The position numbers and the translations under genes were made by a program. 64,000 nucleotides of DNA. Source: Hirudinaria manillensis. Its lineage: Eukaryota > Annelida > Clitellata > Hirudinida > Hirudinidae. The notes beneath the pieces were generated by a model. That model saw nothing but the letters and a program-made list of their open reading frames with translations. It ran no database searches and was not told the origin of the DNA. Position 1 is the first letter of the stretch. Each line of letters begins with the position of its first letter. The DNA lies in NCBI GenBank assembly GCA_034509925.1, contig CM067536.1, forward strand, positions 8,412,501-8,476,500, read 5' to 3'. Shown one piece after another: positions 6,147 through 58,739 of this stretch.

Positions 6147-6345
6147 TATGGGTGATGGTGATGATGGTGGTGGTGGTGATGATGATTGATTACGATGATG
6201 ATGATGATGATGATAAGGATTCATAATATGAAAGAACTGCAGTGAAGACAAACAAGACATTCATCGCATCTTCGTCGTCGTCGTCGTCATCATCATCATC
6301 ATCATCATCATCATCACCATCATCATCGCTATCACGACCATCATC
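6147..6345. repeat. GATG/GGT and CGT/ATC repeats, opposed
   Basis: GATGGTGGT/GATGAT repeats (about 6147-6215), then a CGTCGT/CATCAT run (about 6268-6340) of roughly complementary composition. Confidence 0.8.
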
Positions 6346-26459: not shown

Positions 26460-26808
26460 ATCGATAAGCTGTGGAACTTCGCAAATACGTTAAAGAAAAA
26501 CGTAAACAAAGTTCGATGGATTCGTCTTTTAAAAACATCAATTGCAATCATATAAAAGTGTTAAATTTATCTTTTTAAAATATAGTTAATTGTTGCAATA
26601 AATTTATATCAATAATAAAAATATCACTTAAATCAAATAACTGCACTTTAAAACAATCAAGAAATAGGCAATTTATTGTATTAGTGAATTTTGAAGTTTA
26701 AGCTAATAAATATTTTTAAAATATTATCCGAGTAACATAACGCTATCGAAAGTTGAAAATATGTCATAACCGTCAAATTTGTCGTTCGAGGTTTGAAGCG
26801 ATGCAAAT
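26460..26808. promoter_or_regulatory. Shared 349-bp divergent promoter region
   Basis: The start codons of the minus-strand splicing factor and the plus-strand dynein gene are 349 bp apart, head to head. The interval is AT-rich, with no TATA box in a convincing place and no clear RFX X-box by eye. An out-of-frame ATG at 26801 precedes the dynein start. Inferred from position only; an undetected further 5' exon of the dynein would change this. Confidence 0.4.
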
Positions 26809-32800: not shown

Positions 32801-35800
32801 CAGACGTGGAACAACTTGAAATTCACCATTCTTAAGTATCAGAAAAGAACCGTCGACAAGGGTTTTATGATCGGCTCGGTTGAGGAAATCAATCAGACGC
32901 TTGACGACCAGATCATGCAGCTCCAAGGAATGAGCGCCTCCAGAAATGTCGGTCCTTTCCTCAATGCTGTGGGGAGCTGGGAAAAGCAGCTATCATTGGT
33001 TAGCGAGGTCATTTCTGCCTGGGTAATTGCCCAGAGAAAATGGCTTTATCTCGACAGTATATTTCTTTCAAGCGATATACGAATTCAGTTGCCCGAAGAG
33101 GCCAGACTCTTTGACAAACTGGACAAAAGCTATATGAACATAATGAGGGAAACAGTTATGTCTCCGATCGTCAAGAACTGCTGCCTCGCTCCCTACAGAC
33201 TCCAGCAGCTGGAAGAACTAATAATCGGACTGGACAAGTGTCAGAAATCGTTAAATGATTATCTGGACTCGAAGAGGAACTGCTTTCCCAGATTTTTCTT
33301 TATCTCAGACGACGAATTGCTGAGCATCATCGGAAGCACCGATCCTCTGAGCATCCAAGAGCACATCATCAAAATGTTCGATAACGTCTCATCCCTGAAT
33401 TTCAGGCCTGCTCATGGTGGAGTTGTCGAGGTAGTGGGTATGATCTCGGCCGAAGGAGAAGAGATGCTTCTCAGAGGCAAAGTCAGCGCCGATGGTAAGG
33501 TAGAAATATGGATGAGCAGCGTCGTCCAGGCAATGAAAGAAGCCAATAGAGTGATAACGAAAGAGGCGATTTTTTACTATTGCGCTGCTGGTAAAAGCAG
33601 GATAGAGTGGATGTCCAGTTACCAGGGCATGGTCTGCCTCGCTGGAAATCAGGTTTGGTGGACCTGGGAGGTGGAAGATGTATTTATGAAGGCCGAAATG
33701 GGAGACAAGCAGGCGATGAAGAATTACTCAAAGAAGTTGATCCAGCAAATCGACGACATCGTAGTACTGATCAGGTCGCCTTTGAGTCGCAACGACAGGA
33801 AAAAGTTCAACACCGTCCTAATCATAGATGTTCACTCGAGAGACATTATAGATGGATTTGTCAGGGACAGTATCTTGGATGCCAATAACTTCAGGTGGGA
33901 AAGTCAACTGAGATTTTACTGGGAACAGAATTCAGATCTGCTAGTCGTATTCCAATGCAATGGCAGATTCTTTTACGGATACGAATATATGGGCTTGAAT
34001 GGTAGATTGGTAGTTACCCCACTGACCGATAGGATCTATCTTACCTTGACTCAAGCATTGTCGATGAGGCTTGGTGGCTCACCCGAGGGTCCTGCTGGGA
34101 CTGGTAAAACAGAGACCGTGAAAGACCTCGCAAAGGCCCTGGGCCTACTATGCGTTGTGACCAACTGCGGGGAAGGTTTAGACTACAAAGCTGTGGGTAA
34201 AATATTTTCGGGATTGTGCCAAAGTGGTTCATGGGGATGTTTTGACGAATTCAACAGGATCGACATCTCTGTACTTTCAGTCATCACTTCTCAGCTACAA
34301 GTGATCAGGTACGCCTTACTGCTGAACGTTACCTCATTCGCTTTTGAAGGAGAGGTCATTGCCTTGGATGAAAGAGTGGGCATTTTCATAACCATGAATC
34401 CAGGATATTCTGGCAGGACGGAACTGCCAGACTCCATCAAAGCCCTATTCAGACCCGTTGTCTGCATCGTTCCAGACCTCCAGATGATCTGCGAAGTGAT
34501 GCTCTTCTCGGAAGGTTTTCTCATGGCGAAAAACTTAGCCAAAAAGATGGTCGTACTATACAAACTGTCCAGCGAACAACTCTCTCGCCAGTTTCACTAC
34601 GATTTTCAACTGAGAGCCATCAAGTCAGTACTCGTGATGGCAGGAGAACTGAAAAGGACTTCCAATTTCGAGGAAGACGTGGTTCTGATGCGTGCACTGA
34701 GAGATATGAATCTGCCGAAATTTGTTTTCGAAGATGTACCTCTTTTTCTGGGTCTAATTGCAGATCTATTCCCCGGTATGACTTGCCCTAGAGTTCAGTA
34801 TCCAAATTTTGTGGAGGCAGTTGAACAGTCCCTTGCCGAGAACAAGTTCACAATCCTACCCCATCAAGTCGATAAAGTAATCCAATTATACGAGACCATG
34901 ATGACCAGACATTCCACGATGGTCGTGGGACCAACTTGCGGTGGAAAATCGCTTGTCATTAGTACCCTGTCTCAGGCTCAGACAAAGTTAGGTATGCCGA
35001 CGAAACTCTACACTCTCAATCCGAAAGAAAGAAGCGTAATAGAACTTTACGGAATCTTGGACCCTACGACGAGAGACTGGACTGACGGCTTATTGTCTAA
35101 CATATTCAGAGAGATCAACAAGCCGACGGACAAAGTAGAAAGGAGATACATCGTCTTTGATGGGGACGTCGACGCTTTATGGATCGAAAACATGAATTCC
35201 GTCATGGATGATAACAAACTTTTGACTCTGGCAAACGGAGAGCGTATCAGGATGCAAAAGCACTGCTCCCTACTGTTCGAAGTGTCGGATTTGCAGTATG
35301 CCAACCCATCCACAGTTTCTCGTTGTGGCATGGTGTACGTCGACCCGAAAAATCTCCGGTATACCCCCTATTGGACCAGATGGCTCAAGAATCGGCACGA
35401 TTTGAGGCAGAACGTCAAAGAGTTTGAATTTCTCGAAAGTCTTTACAACGCTTACGTTCCGCCTGCTATCAGCTACATATTCGAAGGTAAGATTGGCGAA
35501 GCGACCAAAGAGCCTCTGAAAACCATCATTCCACTGACAGATTTAAGTATGGTCAAGCAGCTGACTCGCATTCTCGATGCACTCTTAGAGGACGAATTAC
35601 TGGAACACCCCGAAGATACCGAATCCATATTTATCCAGGCCGTCTGCTGGTCTTTGGGTGCAGGTTTGGTCGAGAATGATAAGATAAAGTTCGACGCCTT
35701 CTTAAGAAAAGTCACGAGTTTACTAACTTCAATAGAGGCGGAACCCAGTGTGGGTGAAATTTCAGGAGGAGAAACCACGATATTTGATTACACGTGGAAC

Positions 35801-38800
35801 AAAAGTACTAGTTCTTGGGTATCGTGGTCTTCGAAAGTTCCAGAATATATCCACGATTCCACTGTCGTCTTCAACGAAATACTGGTCCCTACTAAAGATA
35901 CGGTTTGCCTTAAATGGATATTGAGTCTATTTCTGAACCTGGAGACTCCAATTCTGTTCTCGGGAGAAAGCGGTACTAACAAAACTGCAACTATAAAGAG
36001 CTTTTTGAAAAGCTTGAACACCGACGAGTATCATATTCTAGAGATGAATTTTTCCAGTAGGACCACCTCTCTGGACTGCCAGAGAAACCTGGAGTCTCAC
36101 ACGGAGAAGAGGACTAGGGACGTTTTCGGTCCTCCCATTGGCAAACGACTTGCAGTCTTCATCGACGATCTAAACATGCCGCAGGTAGACTTGTACGGCA
36201 CTCAGCAACCCATAGCCATGCTGAAGTTGTTGTTGGGGTACAATGGATTTTACGACCGGGGTACTTTGTTGAACTGGAAGACGCTAAAAGACATCGATTG
36301 GATGGCAGCCATGGGAAATCCCGGAGGTGGAAGGAACAGCGTTGATCCGAGATTCATATCTCTCTTTTCCTTTATTAACGTTGTTTTTCCATCGGATCTG
36401 TCCATCTTTCGCATCTACAGCGGCATCCTAGGCGGTCATACCATGTCATTCAGCCAAGAAGTCAAAGAATCGGTCGACGTCATAACCACGATGACAATGA
36501 CCCTATTCAAGGTCATCGTCAAGGGGCTGCTACCGACGCCCTCGAAGTTCCACTATGTCTTCAATCTCAGGGACATATCTCGAGTTTACAGCGGACTCTG
36601 CCAAATAACCACAGAGCGTTTTACAACCAAGAGCCAATTGCTGAGAGTCTGGCGCCACGAATGTCTGAGGGTTTTTACAGACAGACTAATTAATGACACG
36701 GACAAAAATTTCATCAACACCAACATCTTTCAACTGGTCGAAGCCAACGCCCCGAGCGACATGACTGCGTACGTTATGGCCGACCCGATCATATTCGGAG
36801 ACTACGCAAACGCCATGGAGCAAGGCGCTCCCAGGTTCTATGAAGATCTACAGAACTACGCCACTATCAACGAGATCTTCCATCAGATACTCGAGGAATA
36901 TCAGAAGAACAACATGTTTTCTCTGGTTCTCTTCGACGATGCCCTAGAAAATTTGAGCAGAATCTACAGGGTTCTTCGTCTTCCGCAGGGCCACTGCCTA
37001 TTGACGGGTCACAGCAATGTTGGAAAGATTTCAATGTCCAAGCTGGCAGCTTTTGCAGCAGGTTATGAAATTTTTTCGATTGAGTTGAGCAGAGGATACA
37101 ACGAAACATCGTTCAAAGAAGACTTGAAGTTGCTCTACGAAAAGCTCTGTTTGAAAGACCAGAAAGTTGTCTTTCTATTTAGAGATCGATTCATACTGGA
37201 AGAGAATTTCCTGGAATTGATAAACAACATGCTGACACTTGGAATTGTTCCCGCCCTGTACGAAGACAACGAGAAAGACAGGATCGTGGAACAGCTACAA
37301 AGCCAGGTCATGCAAATTGAAAAATCTCCAACTAAGGACTTGATTTGGCAATTTTTTTCCAGAAGAGCCACCAAGAACCTTCACATCATTTTGTCGATGA
37401 TAGCAGCTAATCCAAACTTGTCGAAAAGATGCAGGAATTTTCCAGGCATAGTTAACAATACTAACATCAATTGGATCTCGCCATGGCCCAAGCAAGCCCT
37501 CTTGGCCGTTGCCAACGACATGATTGTTGCCAACAAAATCGTTAGCGAAGAACTCCTTGAGCCAATAGTAAGCCACGCAGTCTTCACTCACCAGAGCGTC
37601 ATAAAAGCGTCGGAGGATTATTTCGAAAAGATGAGAAGGAGAAATTTTGTCAGTCCCAAGAACTACTTAGACTACCTCAGTACATACATGAGGCTGCTCA
37701 GAGAAAATGACTCATATATCGACTCTCAGTGCAATCGTCTAGACGGAGGAATGACGAAGCTCGTCGAGTCTGGAAAGCAGTTGGACCTCCTGAATGCCAT
37801 ACTCTCGTTCCAAAAGATTGCCGTCACTGAGAAGACTCAGTCCTGTCAAAAGTTGCTCAACAAAATATCCCAGGCCACTTCGGAGGCCGAAGCAAAACAG
37901 GGACTGGCACTCACGAAAAGCAATCAAGTCGAGGTGCAGACAAAGGACATAACAAAAGAAAAAGAGGAAGCGACCGAGGTACTTTCTAAGGCCTTGCCAG
38001 CTCTTGAAGCAGCCAAATTGGCCCTAGATGACATAGACAAAAACGATGTGACGGAAATCAGATCGTTTGCCAAACCTCCAAAGCCGGTACAGACCATTGG
38101 GGAATGCATAGTCGTGCTCAAGGGCATCAAGGATGTTTCTTGGAAGTCCGCCAAGGGTTTGATGATCGATCCTAATTTCCTGAAATCTCTGAAAGAAATG
38201 GATGTCGATAACATTCCCTACAAGAATGTCAATGTCGTCAAGTTTCTCCTTAAAGAGATGAACGTAACCATCGAGGAAATGAGAGACAAAAGCAAAGCCG
38301 GAGCTGGCCTAATGAAATTTGTCCAGGCCGTTGTGGCTTATTGCGAGGTCTACAAGGACGTCAAGCCTAAGAAAGACAAAGTCGAGAGACTCGAAAAAGA
38401 CTTCAATCTGACCATGAACGAACTTCAAAAAATTACATCTCAGCTCGATCACTTGGAATCGACCTTGGCGAGTCTGAAGATGCAGTACGAGCAGGCTATG
38501 ATCGACAAGAAGGTACTTGAAGAAGAAACCGACCTCATGCAGAAACGTCTCCACGCTGCCGACAGACTCATCAAGGGACTGAGCTCCGAAAAGACTAGGT
38601 GGCAGATCGATCTGAAAAATCTGCACGATCAGAAAACTCACATAATCGGAGATTGCCTTCTCTGTGCTGGCTTCCTAGCCTACACGGCTGCTTTTACCTG
38701 GCAATTCAGAGAGTATCTCATCTACGAGGAATGGCTGACCAATGTGATAACCCTTGAGATTCCTGTCAGCGAGGACTTTTCGGTAACGAAGTTGCTTGCT

Positions 38801-41800
38801 GACGAGGTAGACATAAGTCGATGGATCTCCGAAGGCCTACCATCCGACGATCTATCGATTCAGAACGCGATACTTGTGACAAAGAGCAGTCGATTTCCAC
38901 TATGCATAGACCCACAGCAGCAAGCCATCAATTGGATTAAGCAAAGAGAAAAGGGCACCAATTTCAAGATCAGCAGTTTTAACGACACCGATTACATGAA
39001 ACATCTGGAATTGGCCATCAGATACGGTTCTCCGTTTTTGTTTCAAGACGTCGACGACTATATCGACCCGCTCATCAACGACATCCTCTCGAAAGACATC
39101 AAGAGAAGCGGACCCAGCATGAGCGTCATAGTCGGCGACAAAATCGTCGACTACGATCCAAACTTTCGACTCTATCTCACCACGAAGAATCCTTTCCCCA
39201 ATCTGGCAGCCAATGTTTATGGAACGGCTACTGTCATAAACTTCATGGTTACCCTGAAAGGTCTCGAGGATCAACTTTTGGGAGTCATAGTCAAAGTAGA
39301 GAAGAACGAACTCGAGGAGAGACGAGAACAACTCATACACGAGACCAGCAACAACAAGAAGCTTCTCAAAGAGTTGGAAGACTCGCTTCTCAGAGAATTG
39401 GCTCAGTCCAAAGGCAACATGTTGGACAATGCCGACCTGCTCAATACTCTAGAGAACACGAAATCAAAGTCCACCGAAGTTGCCGAAAAACTGAGATTGG
39501 CTGTCCTGACTTCAGATGAAATCGACCGGAACAGAGACATTTACAGACCGATTGCAAAGATGGGAGCCGTCTTGTTTTTTGTCTTGGCAGACATGGCCAC
39601 CGTGAACTCCATGTACCAATACTCTCTGTCGTCCTACATCAAGGTTTTCGAGAATAGTCTGCGCCGTAGTCTACCAGACACCAGGATCGCCATTAGACTG
39701 AGAAACATATCCGAGATGCTGAAGCGCAATGTTTACAATTACGGTTGTACGGGTATCTTCGAAAGGCACAAGCTCCTGTATTCATTTCAGATCACCCTCA
39801 AGCTAAGATTGGACGAGGGTTTTTTGACCGAAGAGGAATTTGAATTCTTCACCAAAGGGAACGTCTCTCTCGAAAAGTCTGACGTTCCCAAGCCATTTCA
39901 ATGGATTCCTGAGGACGCATGGGAATGCGTAACATTGTTGAAGACGGTCTCCGATATTGCCTTCGAAAACTTCATCGTTGACATCGGAAACGACGAAGAA
40001 GAGTGGATAGCTTGGTACAAACACGACAGTCCGGAGGCGATTCCTCTACCAGGAAAGTATAACGACTATCTGACGCCATTTCAGAAACTTATGCTGCTGC
40101 GATGCTTCAGACTAGATCGGCTGTACTGTGCCATTAGCGATTACATCATGAATATCATGGGGGAGCACTTTGTCACCCCTCAAATAACCAGCCTACACAA
40201 CATCTACGAGCAGAGCTTACCCTCTATACCCGTCGTTTTCATCTTGAGCGCAGGTTCAGATCCCACCAACGATCTGGTCAACTTTGCAGAGGAGCTTGGC
40301 ATTAAAAATACCCATCTTAAAATTCTCTCATTAGGGCAAGGCCAGGAGAAGATTGCCATGAATCTCCTGACTGGGGGCATGGCCCATGGACACTGGCTCA
40401 TATTGCAGAACTGCCATCTCATGCTGAGCTTCTTGAGAGAACTGGAGAAGGAGTTTGAAAACTTTTCCAAGCCTCATCCGGATTTCAGACTCTGGCTGAC
40501 TACGGAGCCAGTGGAGGCGTTTCCGATAAGCGTTCTTCAGAGATCTTTAAAGGTCGTGACGGAGCCCCCGAACGGCTTGAAACACAATCTCCGGAACACC
40601 TACTTGAAGCTAATTTCTCCAGTACTGGAAAAGGACTGCGTACATCCCAGCTATCCAGCTCTCTTGTACGTCCTGAGCTTTTTCCACGCCGTCATCCAAG
40701 AAAGACGAAAATACGGTAAGATAGGATGGAATATAATATACGACTTCAACACTACGGATTTTCAGGTATGCAATGTTATCCTTCAAAACACACTGTACAA
40801 GTTGCTAGAGCTGGAGACTAACGTAATACCGTGGGCTAGCCTCAAGTACCTGATTGGGGAGGTCATGTACGGTGGCAGGGTCATTGACGATTTTGACCGT
40901 CGAGTCATCAATACTTACATGGACGAATACATGGGCGATTTCCTTCTGGACGCCTACCAGAAGTTTCATTTTAGCATTGAGGCCGATTTCGAATATCTTT
41001 TGATCGTGAGAGAAACGAAAGAGGAATACGTGGAGTACATCGAGACCATGCCTATGTCTACGACTCCCCAAGTCCTCGGTCTGCATCCGAACGCCGAGAT
41101 CAGCTATTTCATGAATGCTGGACAGAGCATTCTCGACTACATGAAGAGCCTACAACCAAAAACTGGCGGCCAGAAGGCCAGCAGCAGCAGAGAGGAAGAA
41201 GTTGACAAGGTAGCCAAAGACATGTTGGTCAAGATTCCAGATGGATTCAAAGTGGAGAAAGTACGTCAACAGCATTCGAAGAACATAACTCCTAGCATCG
41301 TGGTACTTCTCCAAGAGCTGGATCGGTTCAACAAATTGACTGCCAAAGTCTTGAGCTCGCTCAAGAACCTCAGACAGGCCATCGCCGGCGAGATAGGCAT
41401 GGACAACGATCTCGAGGAGATTTCCAATTCGCTCCATTTCGGATCAATTCCTATGTGCTGGCGTCGACTGGCTCCGGATACTAAGAAGTCGCTCTCCTCT
41501 TGGATTGCTTACCACCTGGAGCGCTACAAGCAGTACTACAACTGGGCATTTGACTCCGAACCAGAGGTAAGTGCGGAATTGGAAAATTAAAATCTATAAT
41601 TTGTCCTAAAAACCTGGTTAGATAATTATCCGCAAGTTGTCAAACAATTTTTATAATTTATTTACCACTAGTAAATTTGTTAACACTTCTAATTAAACTT
41701 ATTGCAAGTTCCAAATGAATCCATCAGTGGTATCATTCAAATGCAGACTCTCTGGATGTCAGGACTACATGTTCCAGAGTCATACCTCACAGCTCTCGTC

Positions 41801-42199
41801 CAAATGACTTGCCGGAAAAACGGCTGGCCCCTGGACAAATCCACTCTCTTTACGAAGGTTTTGACCATGCAGTCGGAAGAAAATGCCTTGGATTCATTCG
41901 GTCACGGCAAGATGATCACGGGATTGTATCTAGAAGGTGCAGGCTGGGACCTCCAAAACTGCTGCCTCGTCAGACAAGAGCCGAAGAAATTGGTCACTCT
42001 CATGCCGACGATCAAAATCGTTCCGATACCATCGAGCAAACTGAGGCTGTCCAATGCCCTACGCACCCCGGTTTACGTGACCTCTGACAGGAGAAACTCC
42101 AGGGGAGTGGGTCTTGTCTTCGAAGCGGATTTGAACACCAGGCAGCATCTCAGCCACTGGATTCTTCAAGGCGTTTGTCTCGTTCTAAACCCAGAATGA
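26809..42199 (+). CDS. DNAH10: Dynein axonemal heavy chain, DNAH10 type (inner arm I1/f beta)
   Basis: Motor heavy chain of the inner-arm dynein of cilia. Exons: 26809-27048, 27150-27389, 27590-27684, 27785-28016, 28197-28484, 28802-31087, 31158-31534, 31700-41566 and 41747-42199; about 4,690 residues, against about 4,470 in vertebrate DNAH10. Order: tail, linker, then P-loops AAA1 GPAGTGKT (34088), AAA2 GPTCGGKS (34928), AAA3 GESGTNKT (35963) and a degenerate AAA4 GHSNVGKI (37007). The stalk with its microtubule-binding tip follows (about 37750-38650), then AAA5, AAA6 and the C-terminal domain ending VCLVLNPE. The AAA1-AAA2 stretch (for example VMAGELKR, LMRALRDMNLPKFVFEDVPLFLGLI) is characteristic of DNAH10. 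The last intron joins SEPE to TLWMSGLHVPESY in phase 0 using donor GAG|GTAAGT. The exon 7 donor and exon 8 acceptor do not agree in phase by one base, so that junction is uncertain. Exon 8 is a single 9,867-bp coding exon. Its 3' third is duplicated twice downstream. Confidence 0.93.
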
Positions 42200-44038
42200 G
42201 TTGTAATGACTCGGAGCTTTTGCTTTTAAGTCGACTCAAAGAATTTACTAACGACTACCTAGAGCAAGTTTTGATTGGTTTTTCATTTTAGGTAAAGCCG
42301 ATCGTATTTTATGATTCTGGTTACTTAATTTTTATGCTTTCATAGTTAAATGAATTTTCTTTAGTGGTCAATTTGATTAAATTTAATTAAACGAATACGT
42401 TGCTTTGTTGATTAGTGGATGTGCTTGCTAGCTATCAGAATCAATCGAAGATGGCCGGATTCCGTCTGTCAGGGGAAACGTCTGTTGGGAAACAAATGAT
42501 TTCGCACCTGAAGCGTTGTTGTCGAAGTTGAATTGAAATTCGTAATGAATTTTTCATTAGCACTCCTGTTCGAACAAAGTAAGGATTCGAACAACAACAA
42601 CAGCAACAAATTCAGCAGTACTGTCAACAACAACAGCAACAAATTCAGCGGCACTGACACCAACAAGAACAACACCAAATTCAAAATTAATTTTTCCCGT
42701 TGCGAAGCGATACGCCAATCTCTCCATTTCTTCAGCGGCATCCAATTAAAATAATAAAAATAAATAAATAATAACAATAACGATATAAATTACATTAATT
42801 AATAATTTACCTTTAATTAATAAAAGCTAATTTATAAATTGGCATGGCGACAAGCACTAAACTTTTAAATGCTTTAAACGAGAAAAATAAAATAAATTTT
42901 AAAAAATTATTTTAATTTCCTTAATTTTCCTTAATTTTCCTTAATTTTCCTCGTGATTTCTACATTCGAATTATCCATTTTAAAAAGAAATTATGAATTA
43001 ATTTGATAATTAGCCATTCTAAAGTTTATGGCGCCGCACGTTTTTTTCTTTTTATTTTTTTATTTTTTGAAATTGATTTCCAGAAAATGTTTCCATTGCT
43101 TCCCTCGTCAATAATAATGATTGATGAGAACTCACGTTCAATTTCAAAAGAAGTCTCAAAGACAGTCTCAAGCATTTATTTTCCGTGCCAATGAATAGCA
43201 GGAATGTAGCTTCGACAAAAAGACAAAACATCAAAGCCTGAATTAAATGCGTGTTTTGTTTTCCAGACGAATTCCATGAAAAATTAGTTATCGATTCGTT
43301 CGTGATGATGAATTGTAAAGGCAGTAACCATTAGCAACTATTAGTTTGATGCCATGTTTTAAGCGCATAAAGTTTTCGGCCTTTTTGGGATTTGAAATAA
43401 AATATTTTGTAGTTATTATCGGTTAGATTTAATTACAAGAAACATGGGTTAGGGTTAGAATTAAAGATTTTTGTTTAGTTTTTTTTTGTGTGAAATCAAG
43501 AAAATAATCTGCAATGATAATTTTGGAAGAACAATTTGCAGGTTCGAAAATTTCTGAGCAACTCTTGCTTTGGACTTTCCATGACCAGCAATTAATTTAA
43601 TATTTAAAGCTTAAATTGCATAAAATTCGGGAAAAATATATCGCCATAACGTTTCTAAATGAGACTAAATAATGCTTGGAGCTTGAGAAAATTTGCTGCG
43701 ATGAAATGTTCTTCGCTGTCATTGATCTGAGTTCAATACTTTGCTATTCCGATATCCGTGAGTCATTTTTTTCTTCCAATTTTCTCTTAATTCCCTGAGG
43801 TCTGTCTGATTCAGCGATGTTGCCAGTCGGTCTCGCTCAGCCCCGTCTTAGAGTTTAAGTAAAAAAAAAGGTCAAATAAATTGGCTCGTCAAATAATAGA
43901 TTTAACATTTATTAGAAGAAAGAAACGAGGAAAAGTTCTGCCTCATGCTGGGATCATCTTCATTTGCATAAACAGGGATGTGCTGGTTATATTTTTAATT
44001 ATTAGTCAATTTATCGCTCGCCATTTATTCTAATTTTA
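36680..44038 (+). repeat. Tandem unit 1 (parental copy), 7359 bp
   Basis: Starts inside dynein exon 8, about residue 2912, just before AAA4. It contains the rest of exon 8, the last intron, exon 9 and about 1.84 kb of 3' flank. It is followed directly by unit 2. Sequence left of 36680 is not repeated. Confidence 0.95.
42200..44038. other. 3' flank of the dynein gene inside unit 1
   Basis: Noncoding. It holds the probable 3' UTR (ATTAAA and AATAAA-like signals at about 42376 and 42750), a CAA/CAGCAACAAATTCAG minisatellite (42588-42670), a 10-bp TTAATTTTCC run (about 42918-42950) and a GGGTTAGGGTTAG telomere-like run (43447-43459). No supportable gene. Confidence 0.7.
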
Positions 44039-47000
44039 GACAGACTTATTAATGACACGGACAAAAATTTCATCAACACCAACATCTTTCAACTGGTCGA
44101 AGCCAACGCCCCGAGCGACATGACTGCGTACGTTATGGCCGACCCGATCATATTCGGAGACTACGCAAACGCCATGGAGCAAGGCGCTCCCAGGTTCTAT
44201 GAAGATCTACAGAACTACGCCACTATCAACGAGATCTTCCATCAGATACTCGAGGAATATCAGAAGAACAACATGTTTTCTCTGGTTCTCTTCGACGATG
44301 CCCTAGAAAATTTGAGCAGAATCTACAGGGTTCTTCGTCTTCCGCAGGGCCACTGCCTATTGACGGGTCACAGCAATGTTGGAAAGATTTCAATGTCCAA
44401 GCTGGCAGCTTTTGCAGCAGGTTATGAAATTTTTTCGATTGAGTTGAGCAGAGGATACAACGAAACATCGTTCAAAGAAGACTTGAAGTTGCTCTACGAA
44501 AAGCTCTGTTTGAAAGACCAGAAAGTTGTCTTTCTATTTAGAGATCGATTCATACTGGAAGAGAATTTCCTGGAATTGATAAACAACATGCTGACACTTG
44601 GAATTGTTCCCGCCCTGTACGAAGACAACGAGAAAGACAGGATCGTGGAACAGCTACAAAGCCAGGTCATGCAAATTGAAAAATCTCCAACTAAGGACTT
44701 GATTTGGCAATTTTTTTCCAGAAGAGCCACCAAGAACCTTCACATCATTTTGTCGATGATAGCAGCTAATCCAAACTTGTCGAAAAGATGCAGGAATTTT
44801 CCAGGCATAGTTAACAATACTAACATCAATTGGATCTCGCCATGGCCCAAGCAAGCCCTCTTGGCCGTTGCCAACGACATGATTGTTGCCAACAAAATCG
44901 TTAGCGAAGAACTCCTTGAGCCAATAGTAAGCCACGCAGTCTTCACTCACCAGAGCGTCATAAAAGCGTCGGAGGATTATTTCGAAAAGATGAGAAGGAG
45001 AAATTTTGTCAGTCCCAAGAACTACTTAGACTACCTCAGTACATACATGAGGCTGCTCAGAGAAAATGACTCATATATCGACTCTCAGTGCAATCGTCTA
45101 GACGGAGGAATGACGAAGCTCGTCGAGTCTGGAAAGCAGTTGGACCTCCTGAATGCCATACTCTCGTTCCAAAAGATTGCCGTCACTGAGAAGACTCAGT
45201 CCTGTCAAAAGTTGCTCAACAAAATATCCCAGGCCACTTCGGAGGCCGAAGCAAAACAGGGACTGGCACTCACGAAAAGCAATCAAGTCGAGGTGCAGAC
45301 AAAGGACATAACAAAAGAAAAAGAGGAAGCGACCGAGGTACTTTCTAAGGCCTTGCCAGCTCTTGAAGCAGCCAAATTGGCCCTAGATGACATAGACAAA
45401 AACGATGTGACGGAAATCAGATCGTTTGCCAAACCTCCAAAGCCGGTACAGACCATTGGGGAATGCATAGTCGTGCTCAAGGGCATCAAGGATGTTTCTT
45501 GGAAGTCCGCCAAGGGTTTGATGATCGATCCTAATTTCCTGAAATCTCTGAAAGAAATGGATGTCGATAACATTCCCTACAAGAATGTCAATGTCGTCAA
45601 GTTTCTCCTTAAAGAGATGAACGTAACCATCGAGGAAATGAGAGACAAAAGCAAAGCCGGAGCTGGCCTAATGAAATTTGTCCAGGCCGTTGTGGCTTAT
45701 TGCGAGGTCTACAAGGACGTCAAGCCTAAGAAAGACAAAGTCGAGAGACTCGAAAAAGACTTCAATCTGACCATGAACGAACTTCAAAAAATTACATCTC
45801 AGCTCGATCACTTGGAATCGACCTTGGCGAGTCTGAAGATGCAGTACGAGCAGGCTATGATCGACAAGAAGGTACTTGAAGAAGAAACCGACCTCATGCA
45901 GAAACGTCTCCACGCTGCCGACAGACTCATCAAGGGACTGAGCTCCGAAAAGACTAGGTGGCAGATCGATCTGAAAAATCTGCACGATCAGAAAACTCAC
46001 ATAATCGGAGATTGCCTTCTCTGTGCTGGCTTCCTAGCCTACTCGGCTGCTTTTACCTGGCAATTCAGAGAGTATCTCATCTACGAGGAATGGCTGACCA
46101 ATGTGATAACCCTTGAGATTCCTGTCAGCGAGGACTTTTCGGTAACGAAGTTGCTTGCTGACGAGGTAGACATAAGTCGATGGATCTCCGAAGGCCTACC
46201 ATCCGACGATCTATCGATTCAGAACGCGATACTTGTGACAAAGAGCAGTCGATTTCCACTATGCATAGACCCACAGCAGCAAGCCATCAATTGGATTAAG
46301 CAAAGAGAAAAGGGCACCAATTTCAAGATCAGCAGTTTTAACGACACCGATTACATGAAACATCTGGAATTGGCCATCAGATACGGTTCTCCGTTTTTGT
46401 TTCAAGACGTCGACGACTATATCGACCCGCTCATCAACGACATCCTCTCGAAAGACATCAAGAGAAGCGGACCCAGCATGAGCGTCATAGTCGGCGACAA
46501 AATCGTCGACTACGATCCAAACTTTCGACTCTATCTCACCACGAAGAATCCTTTCCCCAATCTGGCAGCCAATGTTTATGGAACGGCTACTGTCATAAAC
46601 TTCATGGTTACCCTGAAAGGTCTCGAGGATCAACTTTTGGGAGTCATAGTCAAAGTAGAGAAGAACGAACTCGAGGAGAGACGAGAACAACTCATACACG
46701 AGACCAGCAACAACAAGAAGCTTCTCAAAGAGTTGGAAGACTCGCTTCTCAGAGAATTGGCTCAGTCCAAAGGCAACATGTTGGACAATGCCGACCTGCT
46801 CAATACTCTAGAGAACACGAAATCAAAGTCCACCGAAGTTGCCGAAAAACTGAGATTGGCTGTCCTGACTTCAGATGAAATCGACCGGAACAGAGACATT
46901 TACAGACCGATTGCAAAGATGGGAGCCGTCTTGTTTTTTGTCTTGGCAGACATGGCCACCGTGAACTCCATGTACCAATACTCTCTGTCGTCCTACATCA

Positions 47001-49558
47001 AGGTTTTCGAGAATAGTCTGCGCCGTAGTCTACCAGACACCAGGATCGCCATTAGACTGAGAAACATATCCGAGATGCTGAAGCGCAATGTTTACAATTA
47101 CGGTTGTACGGGTATCTTCGAAAGGCACAAGCTCCTGTATTCATTTCAGATCACCCTCAAGCTAAGATTGGACGAGGGTTTTTTGACCGAAGAGGAATTT
47201 GAATTCTTCACCAAAGGGAACGTCTCTCTCGAAAAGTCTGACGTTCCCAAGCCATTTCAATGGATTCCTGAGGACGCATGGGAATGCGTAACATTGTTGA
47301 AGACGGTCTCCGATATTGCCTTCGAAAACTTCATCGTTGACATCGGAAACGACGAAGAAGAGTGGATAGCTTGGTACAAACACGACAGTCCGGAGGCGAT
47401 TCCTCTACCAGGAAAGTATAACGACTATCTGACGCCATTTCAGAAACTTATGCTGCTGCGATGCTTCAGACTAGATCGGCTGTACTGTGCCATTAGCGAT
47501 TACATCATGAATATCATGGGGGAGCACTTTGTCACCCCTCAAATAACCAGCCTACACAACATCTACGAGCAGAGCTTACCCTCTATACCCGTCGTTTTCA
47601 TCTTGAGCGCAGGTTCAGATCCCACCAACGATCTGGTCAACTTTGCAGAGGAGCTTGGCATTAAAAATACCCATCTTAAAATTCTCTCATTAGGGCAAGG
47701 CCAGGAGAAGATTGCCATGAATCTCCTGACTGGGGGCATGGCCCATGGACACTGGCTCATATTGCAGAACTGCCATCTCATGCTGAGCTTCTTGAGAGAA
47801 CTGGAGAAGGAGTTTGAAAACTTTTCCAAGCCTCATCCGGATTTCAGACTCTGGCTGACTACGGAGCCAGTGGAGGCGTTTCCGATAAGCGTTCTTCAGA
47901 GATCTTTAAAGGTCGTGACGGAGCCCCCGAACGGCTTGAAACACAATCTCCGGAACACCTACTTGAAGCTAATTTCTCCAGTACTGGAAAAGGACTGCGT
48001 ACATCCCAGCTATCCAGCTCTCTTGTACGTCCTGAGCTTTTTCCACGCCGTCATCCAAGAAAGACGAAAATACGGTAAGATAGGATGGAATATAATATAC
48101 GACTTCAACACTACGGATTTTCAGGTATGCAATGTTATCCTTCAAAACACACTGTACAAGTTGCTAGAGCTGGAGACTAACGTAATACCGTGGGCTAGCC
48201 TCAAGTACCTGATTGGGGAGGTCATGTACGGTGGCAGGGTCATTGACGATTTTGACCGTCGAGTCATCAATACTTACATGGACGAATACATGGGCGATTT
48301 CCTTCTGGACGCCTACCAGAAGTTTCATTTTAGCATTGAGGCCGATTTCGAATATCTTTTGATCGTGAGAGAAACGAAAGAGGAATACGTGGAGTACATC
48401 GAGACCATGCCTATGTCTACGACTCCCCAAGTCCTCGGTCTGCATCCGAACGCCGAGATCAGCTATTTCATGAATGCTGGACAGAGCATTCTCGACTACA
48501 TGAAGAGCCTACAACCAAAAACTGGCGGCCAGAAGGCCAGCAGCAGCAGAGAGGAAGAAGTTGACAAGGTAGCCAAAGACATGTTGGTCAAGATTCCAGA
48601 TGGATTCAAAGTGGAGAAAGTACGTCAACAGCATTCGAAGAACATAACTCCTAGCATCGTGGTACTTCTCCAAGAGCTGGATCGGTTCAACAAATTGACT
48701 GCCAAAGTCTTGAGCTCGCTCAAGAACCTCAGACAGGCCATCGCCGGCGAGATAGGCATGGACAACGATCTCGAGGAGATTTCCAATTCGCTCCATTTCG
48801 GATCAATTCCTATGTGCTGGCGTCGACTGGCTCCGGATACTAAGAAGTCGCTCTCCTCTTGGATTGCTTACCACCTGGAGCGCTACAAGCAGTACTACAA
48901 CTGGGCATTTGACTCCGAACCAGAGGTAAGTGCGGAATTGGAAAATTAAAATCTATAATTTGTCCTAAAAACCTGGTTAGATAATTATCCGCAAGTTGTC
49001 AAACAATTTTTATAATTTATTTACCACTAGTAAATTTGTTAACACTTCTAATTAAACTTATTGCAAGTTCCAAATGAATCCATCAGTGGTATCATTCAAA
49101 TGCAGACTCTCTGGATGTCAGGACTACATGTTCCAGAGTCATACCTCACAGCTCTCGTCCAAATGACTTGCCGGAAAAACGGCTGGCCCCTGGACAAATC
49201 CACTCTCTTTACGAAGGTTTTGACCATGCAGTCGGAAGAAAATGCCTTGGATTCATTCGGTCACGGCAAGATGATCACGGGATTGTATCTAGAAGGTGCA
49301 GGCTGGGACCTCCAAAACTGCTGCCTCGTCAGACAAGAGCCGAAGAAATTGGTCACTCTCATGCCGACGATCAAAATCGTTCCGATACCATCGAGCAAAC
49401 TGAGGCTGTCCAATGCCCTACGCACCCCGGTTTACGTGACCTCTGACAGGAGAAACTCCAGGGGAGTGGGTCTTGTCTTCGAAGCGGATTTGAACACCAG
49501 GCAGCATCTCAGCCACTGGATTCTTCAAGGCGTTTGTCTCGTTCTAAACCCAGAATGA
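44039..49558 (+). pseudogene. 5'-truncated dynein heavy chain copy 2 (AAA4 to C-terminus)
   Basis: Two exons, as in the parent: up to 48925 and 49106-49558, with the same donor and acceptor. The frame is open from about 44006 across the junction, and the first Met is at 44120, giving 1602 residues before the donor plus 150 from the last exon. It encodes AAA4, the stalk, AAA5, AAA6 and the C-terminal domain but no tail, linker or AAA1-AAA3, so it cannot act as a dynein motor. There is no disabling mutation. Whether it is transcribed is unknown: what precedes it is the parent's 3' flank, not a recognisable promoter. The sequence TTCTAATTTTAG directly before the duplicated exon looks like a splice acceptor. 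Classed as a pseudogene by truncation. Confidence 0.8.
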
Positions 49559-51399
49559 GTTGTAATGACTCGGAGCTTTTGCTTTTAAGTCGACTCAAAG
49601 AATTTACTAACGACTACCTAGAGCAAGTTTTGATTGGTTTTTCATTTTAGGTAAAGCCGATCGTATTTTATGATTCTGGTTACTTAATTTTTATGCTTTC
49701 ATAGTTAAATGAATTTTCTTTAGTGGTCAATTTGATTAAATTTAATTAAACGAATACGTTGCTTTGTTGATTAGTGGATGTGCTTGCTAGCTATCAGAAT
49801 CAATCGAAGATGGCCGGATTCCGTCTGTCAGGGGAAACGTCTGTTGGGAAACAAATGATTTCGCACCTGAAGCGTTGTTGTCGAAGTTGAATTGAAATTC
49901 GTAATGAATTTTTCATTAGCACTCCTGTTCGAACAAAGTAAGGATTCGAACAACAACAACAGCAACAAATTCAGCAGTACTGTCAACAACAACAGCAACA
50001 AATTCAGCGGCACTGACACCAACAAGAACAACACCAAATTCAAAATTAATTTTTCCCGTTGCGAAGCGATACGCCAATCTCTCCATTTCTTCAGCGGCAT
50101 CCAATTAAAATAATAAAAATAAATAAATAATAACAATAACGATATAAATTACATTAATTAATAATTTACCTTTAATTAATAAAAGCTAATTTATAAATTG
50201 GCATGGCGACAAGCACTAAACTTTTAAATGCTTTAAACGAGAAAAATAAAATAAATTTTAAAAAATTATTTTAATTTCCTTAATTTTCCTTAATTTTCCT
50301 CAATTTTCCTCGTGATTTCTACAGTCGAATTATCCATTTAAAAAAAAATTATGAATTAATTTGATAATTAGCCCTTCTAAAGTTTATGGCGCCGCACGTT
50401 TTTTTTTTCTTTTTATTTTTTTATTTTTTGAAATTGATTTCCAGAAAATGTTTCCATTGCTTCCCTCGTCAATAATAATGATTGATGAGAACTCACGTTC
50501 AATTTCAAAAGAAGTCTCAAAGACAGTCTCAAGCATTTATTTTCCGTGCCAATGAATAGCAGGAATGTAGCTTCGACAAAAAGACAAAACATCAAAGCCT
50601 GAATTAAATGCGTGTTTTGTTTTCCAGACGAATTCCATGAAAAATTAGTTATCGATTCGTTCGTGATGATGAATTGTAAAGGCAGTAACCATTAGCAACT
50701 ATTAGTTTGATGCCATGTTTTAAGCGCATAAAGTTTTCGGCCTTTTTGGGATTTGAAATAAAATATTTTGTAGTTATTATCGGTTAGATTTAATTACAAG
50801 AAACATGGGTTAGGGTTAGAATTAAAGATTTTTGTTTAGTTTTTTTTTGTGTGAAATCAAGAAAATAATCTGCAATGATAATTTTGGAAGAACAATTTGC
50901 AGGTTCGAAAATTTCTGAGCAACTCTTGCTTTGGACTTTCCATGACCAGCAATTAATTTAATATTTAAAGCTTAAATTGCATAAAATTCGGGAAAAATAT
51001 ATCGCCATAACGTTTCTAAATGAGACTAAATAATGCTTGGAGCTTGAGAAAATTTGCTGCGATGAAATGTTCTTCGCTGTCATTGATCTGAGTTCAATAC
51101 TTTGCTATTCCGATATCCGTGAGTCATTTTTTTCTTCCAATTTTCTCTTAATTCCCTGAGGTCTGTCTGATTCAGCGATGTTGCCAGTCGGTCTCGCTCA
51201 GCCCCGTCTTAGAGTTTAAGTAAAAAAAAAGGTCAAATAAATTGGCTCGTCAAATAATAGATTTAACATTTATTAGAAGAAAGAAACGAGGAAAAGTTCT
51301 GCCTCATGCTGGGATCATCTTCATTTGCATAAACAGGGATGTGCTGGTTATATTTTTAATTATTAGTCAATTTATCGCTCGCCATTTATTCTAATTTTA
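49559..51399. other. Noncoding flank of unit 2
   Basis: Same content as the flank of unit 1 (CAA minisatellite, 10-bp run, telomere-like run at about 50806), with the small differences listed for unit 2. No gene seen. Confidence 0.7.
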
Positions 51400-54300
51400 G
51401 ACAGACTTATTAATGACACGGACAAAAATTTCATCAACACCAACATCTTTCAACTGGTCGAAGCCAACGCCCCGAGCGACATGACTGCGTACGTTATGGC
51501 CGACCCGATCATATTCGGAGACTACGCAAACGCCATGGAGCAAGGCGCTCCCAGGTTCTATGAAGATCTACAGAACTACGCCACTATCAACGAGATCTTC
51601 CATCAGATACTCGAGGAATATCAGAAGAACAACATGTTTTCTCTGGTTCTCTTCGACGATGCCCTAGAAAATTTGAGCAGAATCTACAGGGTTCTTCGTC
51701 TTCCGCAGGGCCACTGCCTATTGACGGGTCACAGCAATGTTGGAAAGATTTCAATGTCCAAGCTGGCAGCTTTTGCAGCAGGTTATGAAATTTTTTCGAT
51801 TGAGTTGAGCAGAGGATACAACGAAACATCGTTCAAAGAAGACTTGAAGTTGCTCTACGAAAAGCTCTGTTTGAAAGACCAGAAAGTTGTCTTTCTATTT
51901 AGAGATCGATTCATACTGGAAGAGAATTTCCTGGAATTGATAAACAACATGCTGACACTTGGAATTGTTCCCGCCCTGTACGAAGACAACGAGAAAGACA
52001 GGATCGTGGAACAGCTACAAAGCCAGGTCATGCAAATTGAAAAATCTCCAACTAAGGACTTGATTTGGCAATTTTTTTCCAGAAGAGCCACCAAGAACCT
52101 TCACATCATTTTGTCGATGATAGCAGCTAATCCAAACTTGTCGAAAAGATGCAGGAATTTTCCAGGCATAGTTAACAATACTAACATCAATTGGATCTCG
52201 CCATGGCCCAAGCAAGCCCTCTTGGCCGTTGCCAACGACATGATTGTTGCCAACAAAATCGTTAGCGAAGAACTCCTTGAGCCAATAGTAAGCCACGCAG
52301 TCTTCACTCACCAGAGCGTCATAAAAGCGTCGGAGGATTATTTCGAAAAGATGAGAAGGAGAAATTTTGTCAGTCCCAAGAACTACTTAGACTACCTCAG
52401 TACATACATGAGGCTGCTCAGAGAAAATGACTCATATATCGACTCTCAGTGCAATCGTCTAGACGGAGGAATGACGAAGCTCGTCGAGTCTGGAAAGCAG
52501 TTGGACCTCCTGAATGCCATACTCTCGTTCCAAAAGATTGCCGTCACTGAGAAGACTCAGTCCTGTCAAAAGTTGCTCAACAAAATATCCCAGGCCACTT
52601 CGGAGGCCGAAGCAAAACAGGGACTGGCACTCACGAAAAGCAATCAAGTCGAGGTGCAGACAAAGGACATAACAAAAGAAAAAGAGGAAGCGACCGAGGT
52701 ACTTTCTAAGGCCTTGCCAGCTCTTGAAGCAGCCAAATTGGCCCTAGATGACATAGACAAAAACGATGTGACGGAAATCAGATCGTTTGCCAAACCTCCA
52801 AAGCCGGTACAGACCATTGGGGAATGCATAGTCGTGCTCAAGGGCATCAAGGATGTTTCTTGGAAGTCCGCCAAGGGTTTGATGATCGATCCTAATTTCC
52901 TGAAATCTCTGAAAGAAATGGATGTCGATAACATTCCCTACAAGAATGTCAATGTCGTCAAGTTTCTCCTTAAAGAGATGAACGTAACCATCGAGGAAAT
53001 GAGAGACAAAAGCAAAGCCGGAGCTGGCCTAATGAAATTTGTCCAGGCCGTTGTGGCTTATTGCGAGGTCTACAAGGACGTCAAGCCTAAGAAAGACAAA
53101 GTCGAGAGACTCGAAAAAGACTTCAATCTGACCATGAACGAACTTCAAAAAATTACATCTCAGCTCGATCACTTGGAATCGACCTTGGCGAGTCTGAAGA
53201 TGCAGTACGAGCAGGCTATGATCGACAAGAAGGTACTTGAAGAAGAAACCGACCTCATGCAGAAACGTCTCCACGCTGCCGACAGACTCATCAAGGGACT
53301 GAGCTCCGAAAAGACTAGGTGGCAGATCGATCTGAAAAATCTGCACGATCAGAAAACTCACATAATCGGAGATTGCCTTCTCTGTGCTGGCTTCCTAGCC
53401 TACTCGGCTGCTTTTACCTGGCAATTCAGAGAGTATCTCATCTACGAGGAATGGCTGACCAATGTGATAACCCTTGAGATTCCTGTCAGCGAGGACTTTT
53501 CGGTAACGAAGTTGCTTGCTGACGAGGTAGACATAAGTCGATGGATCTCCGAAGGCCTACCATCCGACGATCTATCGATTCAGAACGCGATACTTGTGAC
53601 AAAGAGCAGTCGATTTCCACTATGCATAGACCCACAGCAGCAAGCCATCAATTGGATTAAGCAAAGAGAAAAGGGCACCAATTTCAAGATCAGCAGTTTT
53701 AACGACACCGATTACATGAAACATCTGGAATTGGCCATCAGATACGGTTCTCCGTTTTTGTTTCAAGACGTCGACGACTATATCGACCCGCTCATCAACG
53801 ACATCCTCTCGAAAGACATCAAGAGAAGCGGACCCAGCATGAGCGTCATAGTCGGCGACAAAATCGTCGACTACGATCCAAACTTTCGACTCTATCTCAC
53901 CACGAAGAATCCTTTCCCCAATCTGGCAGCCAATGTTTATGGAACGGCTACTGTCATAAACTTCATGGTTACCCTGAAAGGTCTCGAGGATCAACTTTTG
54001 GGAGTCATAGTCAAAGTAGAGAAGAACGAACTCGAGGAGAGACGAGAACAACTCATACACGAGACCAGCAACAACAAGAAGCTTCTCAAAGAGTTGGAAG
54101 ACTCGCTTCTCAGAGAATTGGCTCAGTCCAAAGGCAACATGTTGGACAATGCCGACCTGCTCAATACTCTAGAGAACACGAAATCAAAGTCCACCGAAGT
54201 TGCCGAAAAACTGAGATTGGCTGTCCTGACTTCAGATGAAATCGACCGGAACAGAGACATTTACAGACCGATTGCAAAGATGGGAGCCGTCTTGTTTTTT

Positions 54301-56918
54301 GTCTTGGCAGACATGGCCACCGTGAACTCCATGTACCAATACTCTCTGTCGTCCTACATCAAGGTTTTCGAGAATAGTCTGCGCCGTAGTCTACCAGACA
54401 CCAGGATCGCCATTAGACTGAGAAACATATCCGAGATGCTGAAGCGCAATGTTTACAATTACGGTTGTACGGGTATCTTCGAAAGGCACAAGCTCCTGTA
54501 TTCATTTCAGATCACCCTCAAGCTAAGATTGGACGAGGGTTTTTTGACCGAAGAGGAATTTGAATTCTTCACCAAAGGGAACGTCTCTCTCGAAAAGTCT
54601 GACGTTCCCAAGCCATTTCAATGGATTCCTGAGGACGCATGGGAATGCGTAACATTGTTGAAGACGGTCTCCGATATTGCCTTCGAAAACTTCATCGTTG
54701 ACATCGGAAACGACGAAGAAGAGTGGATAGCTTGGTACAAACACGACAGTCCGGAGGCGATTCCTCTACCAGGAAAGTATAACGACTATCTGACGCCATT
54801 TCAGAAACTTATGCTGCTGCGATGCTTCAGACTAGATCGGCTGTACTGTGCCATTAGCGATTACATCATGAATATCATGGGGGAGCACTTTGTCACCCCT
54901 CAAATAACCAGCCTACACAACATCTACGAGCAGAGCTTACCCTCTATACCCGTCGTTTTCATCTTGAGCGCAGGTTCAGATCCCACCAACGATCTGGTCA
55001 ACTTTGCAGAGGAGCTTGGCATTAAAAATACCCATCTTAAAATTCTCTCATTAGGGCAAGGCCAGGAGAAGATTGCCATGAATCTCCTGACTGGGGGCAT
55101 GGCCCATGGACACTGGCTCATATTGCAGAACTGCCATCTCATGCTGAGCTTCTTGAGAGAACTGGAGAAGGAGTTTGAAAACTTTTCCAAGCCTCATCCG
55201 GATTTCAGACTCTGGCTGACTACGGAGCCAGTGGAGGCGTTTCCGATAAGCGTTCTTCAGAGATCTTTAAAGGTCGTGACGGAGCCCCCGAACGGCTTGA
55301 AACACAATCTCCGGAACACCTACTTGAAGCTAATTTCTCCAGTACTGGAAAAGGACTGCGTACATCCCAGCTATCCAGCTCTCTTGTACGTCCTGAGCTT
55401 TTTCCACGCCGTCATCCAAGAAAGACGAAAATACGGTAAGATAGGATGGAATATAATATACGACTTCAACACTACGGATTTTCAGGTATGCAATGTTATC
55501 CTTCAAAACACACTGTACAAGTTGCTAGAGCTGGAGACTAACGTAATACCGTGGGCTAGCCTCAAGTACCTGATTGGGGAGGTCATGTACGGTGGCAGGG
55601 TCATTGACGATTTTGACCGTCGAGTCATCAATACTTACATGGACGAATACATGGGCGATTTCCTTCTGGACGCCTACCAGAAGTTTCATTTTAGCATTGA
55701 GGCCGATTTCGAATATCTTTTGATCGTGAGAGAAACGAAAGAGGAATACGTGGAGTACATCGAGACCATGCCTATGTCTACGACTCCCCAAGTCCTCGGT
55801 CTGCATCCGAACGCCGAGATCAGCTATTTCATGAATGCTGGACAGAGCATTCTCGACTACATGAAGAGCCTACAACCAAAAACTGGCGGCCAGAAGGCCA
55901 GCAGCAGCAGAGAGGAAGAAGTTGACAAGGTAGCCAAAGACATGTTGGTCAAGATTCCAGATGGATTCAAAGTGGAGAAAGTACGTCAACAGCATTCGAA
56001 GAACATAACTCCTAGCATCGTGGTACTTCTCCAAGAGCTGGATCGGTTCAACAAATTGACTGCCAAAGTCTTGAGCTCGCTCAAGAACCTCAGACAGGCC
56101 ATCGCCGGCGAGATAGGCATGGACAACGATCTCGAGGAGATTTCCAATTCGCTCCATTTCGGATCAATTCCTATGTGCTGGCGTCGACTGGCTCCGGATA
56201 CTAAGAAGTCGCTCTCCTCTTGGATTGCTTACCACCTGGAGCGCTACAAGCAGTACTACAACTGGGCATTTGACTCCGAACCAGAGGTAAGTGCGGAATT
56301 GGAAAATTAAAATCTATAATTTGTCCTAAAAACCTGGTTAGATAATTATCCGCAAGTTGTCAAACAATTTTATAATTTATTTACCACTAGTAAATTTGTT
56401 AACACTTCTAATTAAACTTATTGCAAGTTCCAAATGAATCCATCAGTGGTATCATTCAAATGCAGACTCTCTGGATGTCAGGACTACATGTTCCAGAGTC
56501 ATACCTCACAGCTCTCGTCCAAATGACTTGCCGGAAAAACGGCTGGCCCCTGGACAAATCCACTCTCTTTACGAAGGTTTTGACCATGCAGTCGGAAGAA
56601 AATGCCTTGGATTCATTCGGTCACGGCAAGATGATCACGGGATTGTATCTAGAAGGTGCAGGCTGGGACCTCCAAAACTGCTGCCTCGTCAGACAAGAGC
56701 CGAAGAAATTGGTCACTCTCATGCCGACGATCAAAATCGTTCCGATACCATCGAGCAAACTGAGGCTGTCCAATGCCCTACGCACCCCGGTTTACGTGAC
56801 CTCTGACAGGAGAAACTCCAGGGGAGTGGGTCTTGTCTTCGAAGCGGATTTGAACACCAGGCAGCATCTCAGCCACTGGATTCTTCAAGGCGTTTGTCTC
56901 GTTCTAAACCCAGAATGA
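51400..56918 (+). pseudogene. 5'-truncated dynein heavy chain copy 3 (AAA4 to C-terminus)
   Basis: Exon parts run to 56286 and from 56466 to 56918, with the first in-frame Met at 51481. The predicted protein is identical to copy 2 and differs from the parent by the same Thr to Ser change. Missing N-terminal motor parts as in copy 2, with no stop or frameshift. The same acceptor-like sequence precedes it. Confidence 0.8.
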
Positions 56919-58739
56919 GTTGTAATGACTCGGAGCTTTTGCTTTTAAGTCGACTCAAAGAATTTACTAACGACTACCTAGAGCAAGTTTTGATTGGTTT
57001 TTCATTTTAGGTAAAGCCGATCGTATTTTATGATTCTGGTTACTTAATTTTTATGCTTTCATAGTTAAATGAATTTTCTTTAGTGGTCAATTTGATTAAA
57101 TTTAATTAAACGAATACGTTGCTTTGTTGATTAGTGGATGTGCTTGCTAGCTATCAGAATCAATCGAAGATGGCCGGATTCCGTCTGTCAGGGGAAACGT
57201 CTGTTGGGAAACAAATGATTTCGCACCTGAAGCGTTGTTGTCGAAGTTGAATTGAAATTCGTAATGAATTTTTCATTAGCACTCCTGTTCGAACAAAGTA
57301 AGGATTCGAACAACAACAACAGCAACAAATTCAGCAGTACTGTCAACAACAACAGCAACAAATTCAGCGGCACTGACACCAACAAGAACAACACCAAATT
57401 CAAAATTAATTTTTCCCGTTGCGAAGCGATACGCCAATCTCTCCATTTCTTCAGCGGCATCCAATTAAAATAATAAAAATAAATAAATAATAACAATAAC
57501 GATATAAATTACATTAATTAATAATTTACCTTTAATTAATAAAAGCTAATTTATAAATTGGCATGGCGACAAGCATTAAACTTTTAAACGCTTTTAAACG
57601 AGAAAATAAAACAAATTTTTAAAAATAGTTTAATTTCCTTAATTTTCCTCGTGATTTCTACATTCGAATTATCCATTTTAAAAAGAAATTATGAATTAAT
57701 TTGATAATTAGCCATTCTAAAGTTTATGGCGCCGCACGTTTTTTTTTTCTTTTTATTTTTTTATTTTTTGAAATTGATTTCCAGAAAATGTTTCCATTGC
57801 TTCCCTCGTCAATAATAATGATTGATGAGAACTCACGTTCAATTTCAAAAGAAGTCTCAAAGACAGTCTCAAGCATTTATTTTCCGTGCCAATGAATAGC
57901 AGGAATGTAGCTTCGACAAAAAGACAAAACATCAAAGCCTGAATTAAATGCGTGTTTTGTTTTCCAGACGAATTCCATGAAAAATTAGTTATCGATTCGT
58001 TCGTGATGATGAATTGTAAAGGCAGTAACCATTAGCAACTATTAGTTTGATGCCATGTTTTAAGCGCATAAAGTTTTCGGCCTTTTTGGGATTTGAAATA
58101 AAATATTTTGTAGTTATTATCGGTTAGATTTAATTACAAGAAACATGGGTTAGGGTTAGAATTAAAGATTTTTGTTTAGTTTTTTTTTGTGTGAAATCAA
58201 GAAAATAATCTGCAATGATAATTTTGGAAGAACAATTTGCAGGTTCGAAAATTTCTGAGCAACTCTTGCTTTGGACTTTCCATGACCAGCAATTAATTTA
58301 ATATTTAAAGCTTAAATTGCATAAAATTCGGGAAAAATATATCGCCATAACGTTTCTAAATGAGACTAAATAATGCTTGGAGCTTGAGAAAATTTGCTGC
58401 GATGAAATGTTCTTCGCTGTCATTGATCTGAGTTCAATACTTTGCTATTCCGATATCCGTGAGTCATTTTTTTCTTCCAATTTTCTCTTAATTCCCTGAG
58501 GTCTGTCTGATTCAGCGATGTTGCCAGTCGGTCTCGCTCAGCCCCGTCTTAGAGTTGAAGTAAAAAAAAAGGTCAAATAAATTGGCTCGTCAAATAATAG
58601 ATTTAACATTTATTAGAAGAAAGAAACGAGGAAAAGTTCTGCCTCATGCTGGGATCATCTTCATTTGCATAAACAGGGATGTGCTGGTTATATTTTTAAT
58701 TATTAGTCAATTTATCGCTCGCCATTTATTCTAATTTTA
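56919..58739. other. Noncoding flank of unit 3
   Basis: Same content as the other two flanks but the most diverged, mainly at about 57576-57650. Telomere-like run at about 58146. No gene seen. Confidence 0.7.

Follow-up and report, generated by a model that had tools for sequence, protein, structure and literature searches.

Among the described systems closest to the locus analyzed here is Sdic of Drosophila melanogaster, a tandem family of recent origin that stems from sw, the gene for a dynein intermediate chain, and AnxB10. In the reference strain, Sdic comprises six copies that together span about 46 kb, and unequal crossing over is expected to alter the copy number; the family is a two-gene fusion with a new first exon, and an effect on sperm competition has been reported (PMC7475035). 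A second body of work concerns partial duplicates, which made up 21% of 290 young gene pairs in C. elegans and 76% of the duplications segregating in 15 D. melanogaster lines, as given in a review (PMC3449122).

We analyzed a stretch of 64,000 nucleotides from Hirudinaria manillensis (C11:8412501-8476500, in a genome of 148.4 Mb on 23 contigs), referred to here as the window. On its plus strand lie three head-to-tail units without spacer, 99.5-99.9% identical, at 36680-44038 (unit 1, 7359 bp), 44039-51399 (unit 2, 7361 bp), and 51400-58739 (unit 3, 7340 bp); the left edge of the array is ambiguous by one base, a shared A. When the window is compared with itself by BLAST, 36679-51399 aligns to 44038-58739 at 99.70% over 14726 columns, and 36679-44038 aligns to 51399-58739 at 99.53%. 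The initial annotation had described the 3' third of an axonemal dynein gene as triplicated head to tail; the self-BLAST and the exact unit lengths agree with it, and the triplication is confirmed in the assembled sequence. The reported near-identity of the copies is likewise borne out, with pairwise values of 99.86% for units 1 and 2, 99.53% for units 1 and 3, and 99.54% for units 2 and 3.

The parent gene lies at 26809-42199 on the plus strand and has few exons, as judged from Pfam, PDB sequence matches, open frames, and splice sites. Its long open frame (31682-41590, 3302 residues) contains DHC_N2, the AAA modules, the stalk, and half of the C-terminal domain, and a frame at 28802-31120 contains DHC_N1 (Pfam). 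Among solved relatives, DNAH10 chains give the best PDB sequence matches at 4097 bits, compared with 2234 bits for DNAH2; the ranks between them are held by 1-alpha-like chains of other organisms, from 3341 to 2861 bits, one of which is named IDAf-alpha. With DHC_N1, DHC_N2, AAA modules, stalk, and C-terminal domain all found, the parent is classed by its sequence as a DNAH10-type axonemal dynein heavy chain; we take DNAH10 to be heavy chain 1-alpha of the axonemal inner arm I1/f. The main exon, as read from the listed frame, spans 31682-41566 and ends at a phase 0 donor (GAG/GTAAGT), and the last coding exon follows at 41747-42199. Upstream, the 5' exons are sketched from open frames on the same strand (26797-27111, 27138-27428, 27777-28022, 28170-28535, 28733-31117, and 31104-31535); the putative start Met at 26809 and the predicted exons before 28802 stand outside any alignment to a relative. 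The main exon, the splice sites, and the stop codon are all intact. Because unit 1 is the parent's own 3' end, the full-length gene is unbroken as far as tested. An Rfam scan of the window at the gathering threshold gave no match.

Unit 1 consists of the parent's own 3' third together with 1.84 kb of 3' flank. The other two units are 5'-truncated copies, with coding sequence at 44120-48925 and 49106-49558 in unit 2 and at 51481-56286 and 56466-56918 in unit 3 (1752 aa each). The left breakpoint falls inside the parent's main exon: in the truncated ORF, AAA_8, the Pfam family for AAA4, begins at residue 54, and the first Met of this ORF is residue 28 counted from the breakpoint; the break therefore lies just before AAA4, about 80 residues upstream of it. 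The right breakpoint lies 1839 bp beyond the stop codon. The Pfam positions and this distance agree with the earlier placement of one break in the giant exon, ahead of AAA4, and of the other 1.8 kb beyond the last exon.

Part of one gene has thus been copied head-to-tail while the full ancestral gene is still there, which makes the array a tandem partial gene duplicate. Like the partial duplicates of C. elegans and Drosophila described in PMC3449122, each copy holds only part of the ancestral ORF; unlike them, two extra copies sit in one array. The kind of event is ordinary, and it is the exon that is unusually long; the copied coding piece is long because this exon is giant. As in Sdic (PMC7475035), the units are young, tandem, highly similar, and bear a piece of a dynein gene. 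Unlike Sdic, the array derives from one gene and carries a piece of a heavy chain. It involves no two-gene fusion, both sides of each junction being the DNAH10-type gene and its 3' flank.

The two junctions, at 44030-44048 and 51391-51409 on the plus strand, are identical: in each of them the 3' flank, which ends TAATTTTA, meets the interior of the main exon at one common point, GACAGACTT. The microhomology is 1 bp (A) common to both parental sites, or TTTTA if CA was lost. At offset 9, both junctions carry T versus A in unit 1; the identity of the junctions, including this T, argues for one joining event followed by copy gain through recombination. Offset 2005 behaves in the same way, with T in units 2 and 3 versus A in unit 1, so that the left-side differences group units 2 and 3 and set unit 1 apart. 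Most of the right-side differences (offset 4969, the block at 6178-6256, and offset 7177) group units 1 and 2 and set unit 3 apart. Unit 2 resembles a hybrid with its left part from unit 3 and its right part from unit 1, a pattern that is consistent with, and does not prove, an unequal crossover somewhere between offsets 2005 and 4969; with three copies, any one-copy difference could equally be a private mutation. There are exceptions to the mosaic: a poly-T at offset 6361 groups unit 2 with unit 3, and unit 2 alone carries five changes at 6263-6337.

In total, 46 alignment columns differ among the three units, and 42 of these fall in one A+T-rich stretch of 184 positions (offsets 6178-6361; 42857-43040 in unit 1, plus strand), including a 21-base gap in unit 3. 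Unit 3 shows a cluster of changes at offsets 6178-6256; local mutation, conversion, and consensus error are all candidate causes of the differences in this stretch. In the coding sequence, unit 1 differs from unit 2 or unit 3 at 2 of 5340 bases, one change being synonymous and the other T/S, and units 2 and 3 are identical (0 of 5340). Noncoding sequence outside the A+T-rich stretch shows 2 changes (offsets 4969 and 7177) in about 1835 bases, too few for a comparison of rates with the coding part. We also tried to polarize the T/S change, at unit residue 669; it is uninformative, as relatives carry E, L, or T at this position. With only two coding substitutions, the open frames say nothing about selection.

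These observations are compatible with the following series of events. A break or a replication switch would have joined the 3' flank of the DNAH10-type gene to the interior of its main exon through the 1 bp microhomology, yielding one 5'-truncated copy downstream and leaving the full-length gene intact as the first copy. Unequal crossing over between these two repeats would then, as the most likely route, have added a third unit with the same junction. The two extra pieces may eventually decay or be lost by the same kind of recombination. We consider it probable that the array is a very recent tandem partial duplication of this sort, whose extra pieces are most likely untranslated and without function.

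Near-identical units of 7.3 kb could also be produced by the assembly itself, if one or two true copies had been expanded by the assembler or by amplified or circular library DNA; the concentration of the differing columns in an A+T-rich stretch prone to consensus error would fit such an origin. However, the units also differ outside this stretch, at offsets 9, 2005, 4969, and 7177, the clean microhomology join is present twice, and the array is embedded in a contig of 9.59 Mb. Searches of the genome bear on this point as well. A query of 600 bases around the junction matches at full length twice, both times in the array, and, as expected, gives one half match at each end of the array; all four of the four candidates were scored, and none lies on another contig, so that this search reveals no second version of the junction elsewhere. 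The 2000 bases to the left of the array have a single full match, plus one match of 143 bases at 74% on contig C12, within the second DNAH10 gene described below; the 2000 bases to the right also have a single full match, together with at least 54 other, partial matches, each covering 146 query bases or fewer, among the 40 of 125 candidates scored. When the whole unit of 7359 bases served as the query, the search returned 51 short matches with the array itself absent among them, and this result is no evidence of absence elsewhere. We also surveyed repeats in 194 kb of this genome (84 kb with the window and its surroundings and 110 kb at three other dynein loci, with low-complexity sequence masked). 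Apart from the array, the only repeats of at least 150 bp measure 162 bp (94.4%) and 193 bp (79.8%), both in the left part of the window; given this scarcity of long repeats in the survey, the array is far beyond chance. Even an expansion artefact, moreover, requires one real junction, and we regard an origin in the assembly as unlikely.

The copies could instead be old and held identical by gene conversion, which would account for the identical coding sequence of units 2 and 3 alongside an A+T-rich 3' stretch with many differences. Against this, the remaining noncoding sequence is also near-identical, with its two changes set against two in the coding sequence, and youth is the simpler reading; long-term homogenization strikes us as improbable.

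Units 2 and 3 open inside the main exon, and their first in-frame ATG (44120 and 51481) lies 81 bases past the breakpoint. Both retain the donor, the acceptor, and the stop, and the spliced product from the first in-frame Met would have 1752 residues, from AAA4 to the C-terminus. The truncated ORFs as listed are 1609 aa long, their last seven codons being intron, in keeping with the earlier statement that these copies keep open frames of more than 1,600 residues. In the unspliced frame of unit 2, Pfam finds AAA_8, MT, AAA_9, Dynein_heavy, AAA_lid_11, and part of Dynein_C. Holding only the part from AAA4 to the C-terminus, units 2 and 3 are fragments and not DNAH10-type heavy chains.

Could such a fragment be made, as a protein of AAA4, stalk, AAA5, AAA6, and C-terminal domain that binds microtubules or interferes with dynein? 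Every domain from AAA4 through the stalk, AAA5, and AAA6 to the C-terminal domain is whole, since the break precedes AAA4, and this, the retained splice sites and stop, as well as the identity of the two units in coding sequence, speak for this idea. Yet age alone accounts for the identity, and the units carry nothing upstream of 36680; they are without the parent's 5' region and N-terminus and therefore without its promoter. Ahead of the in-frame ATG at 44120 comes an out-of-frame ATG at 44052, with 23 codons. AAA1 is the main motor ATPase site of dynein; with AAA1 and half of the ring absent, a stable fold is doubtful on general grounds. We also considered the junction AG, TTCTAATTTTAG, as a new 3' splice site and rejected it as special: it scores 2.6, a value matched or exceeded by 27% of the 3761 AGs in the window. 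The acceptors modelled in the C12 gene have a median score of 7.9 and a lowest score of 1.7, figures that are flattering in that the matrix was built from 46 heuristically placed C12 introns and scored on those same sites; the acceptor of the last exon of the window gene scores 5.1. A splice from the 41566 donor to the junction AG would be out of phase.

The claim in the initial annotation that the array, if real, creates two standalone proteins that could in principle act dominantly on dynein is thus unsupported: the copies are without the parent's 5' region, the acceptor at the junction is poor, the out-of-frame ATG comes first, and open frames are expected at two substitutions. That units 2 and 3 are expressed as the 1752-residue protein seems to us very improbable. 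By analogy with Sdic, one can imagine that a divergent second DNAH10 with few introns, perhaps a dynein of testis or sperm, is now spawning a tandem family of translated, motor-less stalk fragments acting on microtubules or on I1/f assembly; such an early Sdic-like stage would be a very long shot. As a functional claim about dynein, the array carries no weight yet. If real, a very recent partial duplication captures at an early moment the way in which tandem partial duplicates arise, two copies having received one and the same junction. A literature search for partial or tandem duplications of dynein heavy chains found none, and DNAH10 was unmentioned among the broader matches listed; we do not claim absence in print.

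A protein search of the genome, among the 29 of 224 candidates that were scored, returned the three copies of the array, and the nearest other gene is one of many short exons on C12, with exon identity of up to 66%. This second, intron-rich DNAH10-type gene (loci L045-L049) lies on the minus strand at about 7453193-7492836, as placed by an alignment of 60 kb, and 54 of its pieces form a chain that covers residues 187-3445 of the protein encoded in the window. Over these residues, we modelled 46 introns in the C12 gene versus one in the window gene; the 5' introns of the window gene, apparently several more, fall outside this comparison. The single intron of the window gene and the closest intron of the C12 gene are about 7 residues apart, so the former is not obviously inherited. 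The parent gene in the window matches DNAH10 chains best and is an intron-poor second copy.

In one segment compared among seven sequences with stitched exons, the C12 gene is 59.3% identical to a solved DNAH10 chain over 378 columns and the window gene 53.9% over 399; the two genes share 53.4% over 378 residues. An unrooted FastTree tree of the same segment joins them with a support of 0.926 and branches of 0.48 (window) versus 0.37 (C12). These values suggest a duplication in this animal's own lineage, with intron loss in the window gene. The window gene may be an old retrocopy; retrocopying would be a simple route, and plain intron loss is possible. With about half of the residues differing between the two genes, any poly(A) trace or target-site duplication is likely gone. 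A literature search for retrogenes or intronless genes of dynein heavy chains gave one match, a paper on brown algae. That an intron-poor second DNAH10 exists alongside an intron-rich one is a matter separate from the array, with some interest for how axonemal dyneins evolved.

Two other dynein heavy chain genes have long open exons, one at C7:9479238-9483170 (L052), with a frame of 1432 aa and nearest to DNAH7, and one at C6:92280-94510 (L055), with a frame of 1357 aa. The stalk family PF12777 has 37 matches in the genome, which we grouped by eye into 18 places. Elsewhere in the window, tetranucleotide arrays of CTCA (115 copies) and TTGA (97 copies) occupy 1-460 and 1423-1809, and many trinucleotide arrays lie between 3.7 and 22.4 kb; one array is listed within 26809-42199. 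An open frame at 7336-8145 encodes CCCH and CCHC zinc fingers (Pfam) and presumably resembles CPSF4/CPSF30.
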